This document shows positions 40,207 to 42,006 of a DNA stretch of 50,764 nucleotides, in pieces. This DNA comes from Thermoanaerobaculia bacterium. GTDB lineage: Bacteria > Acidobacteriota > Thermoanaerobaculia > Gp7-AA8. The DNA lies in assembly GCA_017883235.1 (NCBI GenBank), contig JADGNY010000037.1, forward strand, positions 1 through 50,764, read 5' to 3'. Position numbers and translations under genes: made by a program. Numbering within the stretch: position 1 is the stretch's first letter; each line of letters begins with the position of its first letter. The notes below the pieces were generated by a model. That model was not told the origin of the DNA. It did not search any database and saw nothing but the letters and a program-made list of their open reading frames with translations.

Positions 40207-41157
40207 GTGGCCGATCCGAGAAAGCTCGCCGTCGTCGCGTTCGGCGGCAACGCGCTGTTGCGCCCCGAGGACCGCGGTACGCAGGAAGAACAGATTGCCC
40301 GCGCCAAACAGGCCGCGCGCTGGCTGGCCGAGATCGTCCGCCACGACTACAAACTGATCGTCGTCCACGGCAACGGGCCACAGGTTGGCAACATCCTGGT
40401 GCAGGCGGAAGAAGCGTCGACGAAGATCCCGCCGCAGTCGCTCGATGTCTGCGTGGCGCAGACCGAGGGGTCGATGGGGTTCTTGCTGCAACAGGCGATT
40501 CGCAACCGGCTCGACAGCATCGGCATCGGCGGCGACGTTGCGACGATCCTGACCGAGGTGGAGGTCGATCCGGTCGATCCGGCGTTCAAGCGGCCCACCA
40601 AACCAATCGGCCCATTTTTCACCCGCTATCGCGCCGAGGCGCTCGAGCGCGACCTCGGGTGGACGATGCGCGAAGACGCGGGACGCGGCTGGCGCCATGT
40701 CGTCCCCTCGCCGCGCCCGCTGCGCATCCTGAACATCGAGACGATCGTGCACATGCTCGAAAGCGCCGCGGTGGTGATCGCCGCGGGTGGCGGCGGCATC
40801 CCGGTCGTCCGCGGCCGCGACAGCCAGTGGCGCGGCGTCGAAGCGGTGATCGACAAGGACTTCTCATCGTCGCTTCTCGCCTCGGAACTGAAGGCCGAGA
40901 TGTACGTCGTCCTCACGGGCGTCGCCAAGGTGGCCATCGATTTCGACAAACCGTCGCAGAGAATGGTCGACCGCCTCACCGTCGTCGAGGCGCAGCGCTA
41001 TCTTTCGGAAGGCCAGTTCCCTGCCGGATCGATGGGCCCGAAGATCGAAGCCGCCATCCAGTTCGTCACCCACGGCGGCAAGCAGGTTCTGATCACCGAC
41101 GTCGAGCACCTCCGCGACGCGCTGGCGGGGCGGGAGGGGACGCTGATTCTTCCCTGA
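40207..41157 (+). CDS. arcC: carbamate kinase
   Basis: A 316-residue amino-acid-kinase-fold enzyme that makes ATP from carbamoyl phosphate and ADP. It starts at a GTG one base after the arcA stop, so the two are translated together. Motifs: VVAFGGNALLRPED, VVHGNGPQVGNIL, GGGGIPVVRG, and FPAGSMGPKIEAAIQFVTHGGKQVLITD near the end. ArcB, which would supply carbamoyl phosphate from citrulline, is not adjacent. The last 65 bases overlap the end of the convergent BrnT-fusion gene. Confidence 0.95.
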   Translation: MADPRKLAVVAFGGNALLRPEDRGTQEEQIARAKQAARWLAEIVRHDYKLIVVHGNGPQVGNILVQAEEASTKIPPQSLDVCVAQTEGSMGFLLQQAIRNRLDSIGIGGDVATILTEVEVDPVDPAFKRPTKPIGPFFTRYRAEALERDLGWTMREDAGRGWRHVVPSPRPLRILNIETIVHMLESAAVVIAAGGGGIPVVRGRDSQWRGVEAVIDKDFSSSLLASELKAEMYVVLTGVAKVAIDFDKPSQRMVDRLTVVEAQRYLSEGQFPAGSMGPKIEAAIQFVTHGGKQVLITDVEHLRDALAGREGTLILP

Positions 41158-41890
41158 GTCGCTTGCCCTCCGCGTACCACTCCTCATCCGAGACGAAGTG
41201 CGGAATCCGTCCCTCGCGGATCAGCATTCGCAGCGCGCTGTTGACCTCTTCTGAGGTGCGGAAAACGACGTAGACATCCTCGTCCAGAGTCGCGGTACCT
41301 TTTACCAAGGGAATGTAGTGGAGACCGCGCACGGCCTTACTCCAGTCGAAGTGCGTGGCTTCATCGTCGACGGCTTCGATCGGCTCGTCATAAATCGTCT
41401 GTTCTTCGTCCATGTAGGATCTCCTTTCAGACCTTGTTGCCAGACGTGCGCTGATCAGTCGCACATGCATCTCCCGCAGCGTGTAGCAAACGAACAAAAC
41501 TCTGCCGGAAGCGGCCGAGCCAAAACTGATATATCGATCTTCGTCGTCGGAATGAGTGTCATCGTTCTCCGTCGCCCGGAGCGGGTCGTTGAATACTTCG
41601 CTCGCCTCGTCAAAAGACACACCATGTTTCTTGAAGTTCTCTCCAGCCTTGACGCGGTCCCATGAAATTCGAAGCGTCACATCGCTGGGCGCGCGGCCTT
41701 CAGCGACGAGCTCCCGAAGGGCGGCGTTGACGAGCTCCGGTGACGAGTAGTAGCGCGCTACATCTTTCTCGATCGTCACCCGGATGGGAGATTTTCCGGG
41801 CCGGTAGTACTTGCCACGAACGCCGTTGCTGAAGTCGTACTCGGGCAGAATGTCGTCATCCTCGTCGGCTGGGTCTTTCGGTTTGCTCAT
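41093..41890 (-). CDS. BrnT-like toxin domain flanked by two antitoxin-like modules in one ORF
   Basis: A continuous 265-residue frame with three modules. Residues 17-66: YDFSNGVRGKYYRP with LVNAALRELVAEGR, as in small BrnA/VRGKY-type antitoxins. Residues 72-159: BrnT (DUF497) ribonuclease toxin pattern (WDRVKAGENFKKHGVSF, YISFGSAASGRVLFVCYT, RLISARLATRSERRSY). Residues 179-232: second antitoxin-like module (FDWSKAVRGLHYIP, VNSALRMLIREGRIP). Met160 (ATG at 41413) has its own AGGAGA six bases upstream, so the last module may also be made separately. BrnT is normally an independent protein; this in-frame arrangement is unusual. Confidence 0.75.
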   Translation of the reverse strand: MSKPKDPADEDDDILPEYDFSNGVRGKYYRPGKSPIRVTIEKDVARYYSSPELVNAALRELVAEGRAPSDVTLRISWDRVKAGENFKKHGVSFDEASEVFNDPLRATENDDTHSDDEDRYISFGSAASGRVLFVCYTLREMHVRLISARLATRSERRSYMDEEQTIYDEPIEAVDDEATHFDWSKAVRGLHYIPLVKGTATLDEDVYVVFRTSEEVNSALRMLIREGRIPHFVSDEEWYAEGKRLREESASPPAPPARRGGARRR

Positions 41891-42006
41891 GCTGAATGTC
41901 TAGTGCGCGTACTTCGCCGCGCGGTCTGAACTGCGTCCGTCCCCGAGGATACCTCGGTGTTCCTTTTCTCAGTACCCCACAGAATTGGCTACACTGACAC
42001 TTATCC

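Follow-up and report, generated by a model that had tools for sequence, protein, structure and literature searches.

The window, by which we mean the whole stretch of 50,764 nucleotides that was analysed, is from an Acidobacteriota genome and carries a single open frame in which a BrnT toxin module stands between two antitoxin-like modules, here called AT1 and AT2 (Table 1). The first-pass annotation had described a stop-free frame of 265 residues with this order, and its description is borne out by the reading of the frame together with a Pfam match to PF04365 and a partner-protein profile that matches both flanks; the AGGAGA and ATG that it had assigned to the third module are likewise present at Met160, with the AGGAGA 6 nt upstream of the ATG. 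In what follows, G000 is the window's genome, G001 and G002 are of the same genus, G016 and G010 represent two other genera of the family, and G009 belongs to the genus of G016.

Table 1. Features of the AT1-BrnT-AT2 locus (window positions).
Feature	Position	Strand	Basis or remark
AT1-BrnT-AT2 open reading frame	41093..41890	-	ATG start, 265 codons and stop
AT1, antitoxin-like module, residues 1-70	41681..41890	-	alignment with BrnT partner proteins
BrnT toxin module, residues 71-159	41414..41680	-	PF04365, Foldseek, conservation
AT2, antitoxin-like module, residues 160-265, in the usual downstream antitoxin position	41096..41413	-	partner-protein alignment
GTG at start of BrnT module	41678..41680	-	aligned at the DNA level with the start ATG of BrnT-AT2 in G002, where it is a separate gene
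AGGAGA Shine-Dalgarno within the 3' end of BrnT	41420..41425	-	Shine-Dalgarno energy -8.7 kcal/mol
Internal ATG (Met160), start of AT2	41411..41413	-	invariant in five fused orthologues
Inverted repeat CCGAGGTATCCTCGG	41943-41957		between divergent genes

The toxin module belongs to the BrnT family by Pfam's own threshold: residues 77-155 cover the full PF04365 profile (1-77 of 77; E 6.9e-26) and score 90.8 bits against a gathering cut-off of 34.5. Its modelled fold is that of BrnT (RelE-like), matching in Foldseek both 7vd7_A, the toxin of a Salmonella toxin-antitoxin complex (TMt 0.85, E 1e-8), and 3u97, the BrnT of Brucella (TMt 0.75, E 4e-5). K88, H89, F100 and E155 occupy the positions of the Lys-His pair, the Phe and the C-terminal Glu reported to be essential in Aave_1720/BrnT, the positions being paired by motif in a conserved alignment and not by structure superposition. 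By this pairing the residues reported essential are intact, and the module is a putative ribonuclease toxin.

The motif [EH]-[YF]-D-[FW]-S-x-x-V-R-G occurs in both AT1 and AT2, and a segment containing V-N-x-A-L-R comes after it; in AT1 the motif reads EYDFSxGVRGKY and precedes a predicted beta-alpha-alpha, ribbon-helix-helix-like element. The same motif is characteristic of small proteins whose genes lie immediately downstream of BrnT in Cyanobacteria, Chloroflexota, Planctomycetota, Acidobacteriota and other phyla, and both modules match a profile built from BrnT-adjacent partner proteins of many phyla. Because it draws on both the family resemblance and the gene position of these partners, the assignment of a putative antitoxin function to AT1 and AT2 is well founded. 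A Pfam search of the window's protein gave no antitoxin model above cut-off for either module, and BrnA (PF14384) was not listed for them; PF14384 matched weakly in 3 of 32 relatives, at best with E 0.0075, and by Pfam's rule the family is not BrnA. A profile search of the PDB with the antitoxin family returned mainly designed helical repeats, which were not meaningful, and an alignment of free antitoxin rows with the 265-residue protein was dropped when the rows fell on the toxin. The idea that AT1 was recently copied from AT2 found no support: AT1 lies nearest to canonical partners and AT2 nearest to that of G016, in an alignment whose 49 columns resolve little.

AlphaFold2 models BrnT well and gives AT1 and AT2 each a strand-helix-helix of low confidence, as expected for a ribbon-helix-helix protein (for AT1, DSSP assigns E36-40, H42-45 and H51-64). 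The arrangement of domains in the 265-residue model is unreliable (pTM 0.47). In the model of the G010 fusion (pTM 0.62), the last BrnT helix continues into the antitoxin and the conserved antitoxin motif is unresolved; this motif has a pLDDT below 50 in the models. Neither the model of the 265-residue protein nor that of the G010 fusion contained a confident toxin-antitoxin interface or inhibitory contact.

A frame of this kind could be the product of an assembly or sequencing error that took out a stop codon, as the first-pass annotation had itself allowed, and indeed the assembly to which the window belongs is a draft in 246 contigs, and the related genomes are metagenome-assembled. However, G001 carries the same three-module frame (267 residues, 73% identity) with no stop, so the concern does not apply to this locus. 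Between G000 and G001, dN/dS is 0.18 for AT1, 0.09 for BrnT and 0.14 for AT2, and by these ratios purifying selection acts on all three modules, most strongly on BrnT. The indels that separate the two sequences are 3, 12, 6 and 3 nt long, each a multiple of three, with that of 12 nt in the AT1-BrnT linker. Since BrnT and AT2 are in addition fused in five genomes, we reject an error as the cause of the frame and regard it as extremely improbable; the comparison confirms the antitoxin-toxin-antitoxin frame as real and under selection.

The two fusions differ in how widely they occur. BrnT and AT2 are fused in all five intact orthologues (G000, G001, G002, G016 and G010), which span three genera and occupy the same chromosomal place, and the Tyr-Met at the BrnT-AT2 junction is invariant among them. 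By contrast, AT1 is limited to one genus and is joined to BrnT in two of its three genomes, G000 and G001; in G002 it is a separate gene of 81 residues whose stop and the start of a 178-residue BrnT-AT2 fusion overlap in ATGA, and G016 and G010 have the BrnT-antitoxin fusion alone. The original claim of a fusion thus holds for the presence of three modules in one frame, but it joined two events of different spread: on the orthologues compared, the BrnT-AT2 fusion is the more widespread and general at the locus. The orthologous loci all adjoin a carbamate kinase-like gene; those of G002, G016 and G010 also have a truA-like gene and a small conserved gene as neighbours (the carbamate kinase and truA names are from reading translations). 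In a sixth orthologue, that of G009, BrnT is gone and AT2 is kept with its ATG at the same place; this orphan antitoxin (L067:1792-2031) is preceded by QERRRY, the end of the vanished BrnT, and the locus reads as a natural toxin deletion that retained the antitoxin start. Elsewhere in the window's genome there is a tandem BrnT-antitoxin-BrnT-antitoxin array (L002, C108:23512-24672), in which loss of the first toxin would leave the order antitoxin-toxin-antitoxin.

The earlier proposal that one transcript gives both a fusion and a free antitoxin is supported by the internal start. All five fused orthologues retain the Met160 ATG together with its Shine-Dalgarno. The orphan antitoxin of G009 has the equivalent of Met160 as its first codon, and in relatives with a separate antitoxin gene that gene starts at the corresponding position. 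The energy of the anti-Shine-Dalgarno duplex at the internal ATG is -8.7 in G000, which places it in the top 1.7% among Met codons that lie internally and in frame in genes of the window, and -6.5, -7.9, -8.7 and -5.6 in the other four, as compared to +0.5 and +1.9 at the starts of the whole frames of G000 and G001. The internal start thus looks stronger than the start of the frame, and free AT2 would accordingly be expected to outnumber the fusion. Rare Arg codons preserve the Shine-Dalgarno: at the three positions before the junction Tyr, 8 of 9 Arg codons are AGA or AGG, while in the remainder of these frames 11 of 108 are (Fisher p 9e-7, an optimistic value since the test takes related sequences as independent), and AGA and AGG make up only 9% of Arg codons in the window's genes. 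Against this, the Shine-Dalgarno coincides with codons that specify a conserved E-R/K-R/K motif, and unfused pairs have purine runs like it.

We took a census of 109 distinct BrnT/antitoxin pairs, with 80 loci drawn from many phyla and the others from the family and class. Outside this locus, all 104 pairs are separate genes, in agreement with the first-pass statement that most BrnT systems are two genes; the objection it had raised against itself, that homologues might consistently be separate, is right for homologues elsewhere and does not apply to the orthologues at the locus, which are fused. In 78 of the 104 separate pairs, the last Tyr codon of the toxin and the antitoxin ATG overlap out of frame as TATG, the ATG starting from the second base of that codon, while the five fusions have their ATG directly after the Tyr codon and exactly in frame (TATATG or TACATG). 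From this junction pattern we infer that BrnT and AT2 were formerly overlapping genes, as in the relatives, and that a 2-nt shift at TATG, for example a duplication of AT, may have set the AT2 ATG in frame with the ribosome-binding site and start kept. The BrnT tree (85 columns) neither rejects nor demonstrates that BrnT and AT2 became fused only once (p-AU 0.25). Among 20 further BrnT loci, picked mainly for long open frames, there was one more BrnT-antitoxin fusion, L195 (G114 C172), which is separate from that described here, comes from another family of the class and has a degenerate toxin end that has lost the C-terminal ERR-Tyr. No fusion was present among the 17 best new BrnT matches from 396 genomes of the phylum. 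The 745 plasmid records that matched included none covering more than 80% of the query, PADLOC gave no match for the locus, and scans of genome contigs and viral contigs with the bare protein gave no matches.

Upstream of the frame, a promoter scan revealed no sigma-70-like site. An inverted repeat, CCGAGGTANCCTCGG, precedes all six orthologues and was considered as a dedicated operator, but we rejected this because it is a dispersed repeat, with 1 to 16 copies each in 10 of 11 related genomes; the reversed control was absent from the 11 genomes searched. In G000 and G010 its other copies lie on contigs without BrnT hits.

Taken together, these features suggest, with a probability that we put at about 0.6, a chromosomal type II toxin-antitoxin locus that yields a self-neutralised fusion and a free AT2 acting in trans; that the output is such a fusion plus additional free AT2 is, as a part of this reading, likely. 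One could envision that Met1, which has no Shine-Dalgarno, would give a small amount of the full-length protein, in which the toxin would be kept inactive by its own antitoxin domains, while initiation at Met160 would supply an excess of AT2 neutralising in trans. By forming ribbon-helix-helix dimers, the free AT2 would help to repress the locus, and toxin would be freed only on cleavage or destabilisation of the antitoxin domains or linkers. Toxicity, inhibition in cis and in trans, autoregulation and proteolytic release are all predictions of this scheme. A further elaboration, which we think rather unlikely, is that AT1 and AT2 pair within one chain as a ribbon-helix-helix pseudo-dimer, forming a single-chain repressor that encloses the ribonuclease, toxicity then depending on how much full-length protein there is relative to AT2 started at Met160.

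Alternatively, the locus may be losing its toxicity and have been domesticated as a regulator, with the toxin silenced for good by its covalent antitoxins and serving only as a co-repressor or structural part. The deletion of BrnT in G009 with retention of AT2 would fit such a course, as would the degenerate BrnT end of the unrelated fusion L195; however, constraint among the three modules is strongest on BrnT (dN/dS 0.09), and the K, H, F and E reported to be needed for activity are all in place, so that we consider domestication unlikely. The functional protein could also be BrnT-AT2 translated from the GTG at 41680, the joining of AT1 then being a neutral accident in the linker and the 265-residue product having no distinct role. 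In G002, AT1 is indeed a separate overlapping gene and BrnT-AT2 starts at the aligned codon, and AT1 is fused in just two genomes; yet in neither of these is there a stop after AT1, so any ribosome translating AT1 goes on into BrnT, the indel in the linker preserves the frame, AT1 is itself constrained, and the aligned start in G002 has no good Shine-Dalgarno upstream. We therefore judge this account quite improbable and favour the self-neutralised fusion with free AT2.

The locus is a real and, on the comparisons made here, unusual variant of a common toxin-antitoxin pair, and the fusion of BrnT to BrnA is itself already known. Like BrnT-BrnA of Brucella abortus (PF04365/PF14384), it combines the BrnT fold and the residues reported essential with a downstream antitoxin predicted to be ribbon-helix-helix-like; unlike that system, its putative antitoxins fall below the Pfam cut-off for BrnA, toxin and antitoxin are joined, and an extra antitoxin-like domain stands in front. 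The part of a recent report drawn on here (mBio 2025, PMC11980606) counts 28 prokaryotic and 4 eukaryotic BrnT-BrnA gene fusions, which share with our locus the toxin-antitoxin order in one gene and, mostly, an RHH antitoxin domain; in that part they are described as two-domain proteins, whereas the locus here has the antitoxin-toxin-antitoxin order and a conserved internal antitoxin start. In EzeT of E. coli (PMC4826407) a toxin is known to be quenched in cis by its covalently attached antitoxin; there, however, a single N-terminal antitoxin domain is linked to a zeta-toxin-like kinase, rather than a putative RNase, and here action in cis is predicted. An AT-T-AT organisation is mentioned for E. 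coli (PMC10790755), with the toxin flanked by antitoxins on both sides as here, but as separate genes and not as one polypeptide. For an antitoxin-toxin-antitoxin polypeptide we found no report in a search that covered the main text of open-access papers.

The relatives lay out a traceable route from a two-gene operon to a multi-domain toxin, in which the genes first overlap, then fuse in frame with the antitoxin retaining its start, and a second antitoxin is afterwards added and fused. Because separate, half-fused, fully fused and toxin-less states all exist among them, one can test directly what each step does to toxicity and regulation. At its 3' end the frame overlaps the convergent carbamate kinase-like frame by 65 nt (window 41093-41157), and its last 29 codons have a dN/dS of about 1.4, in contrast to the values for AT1, BrnT and AT2.
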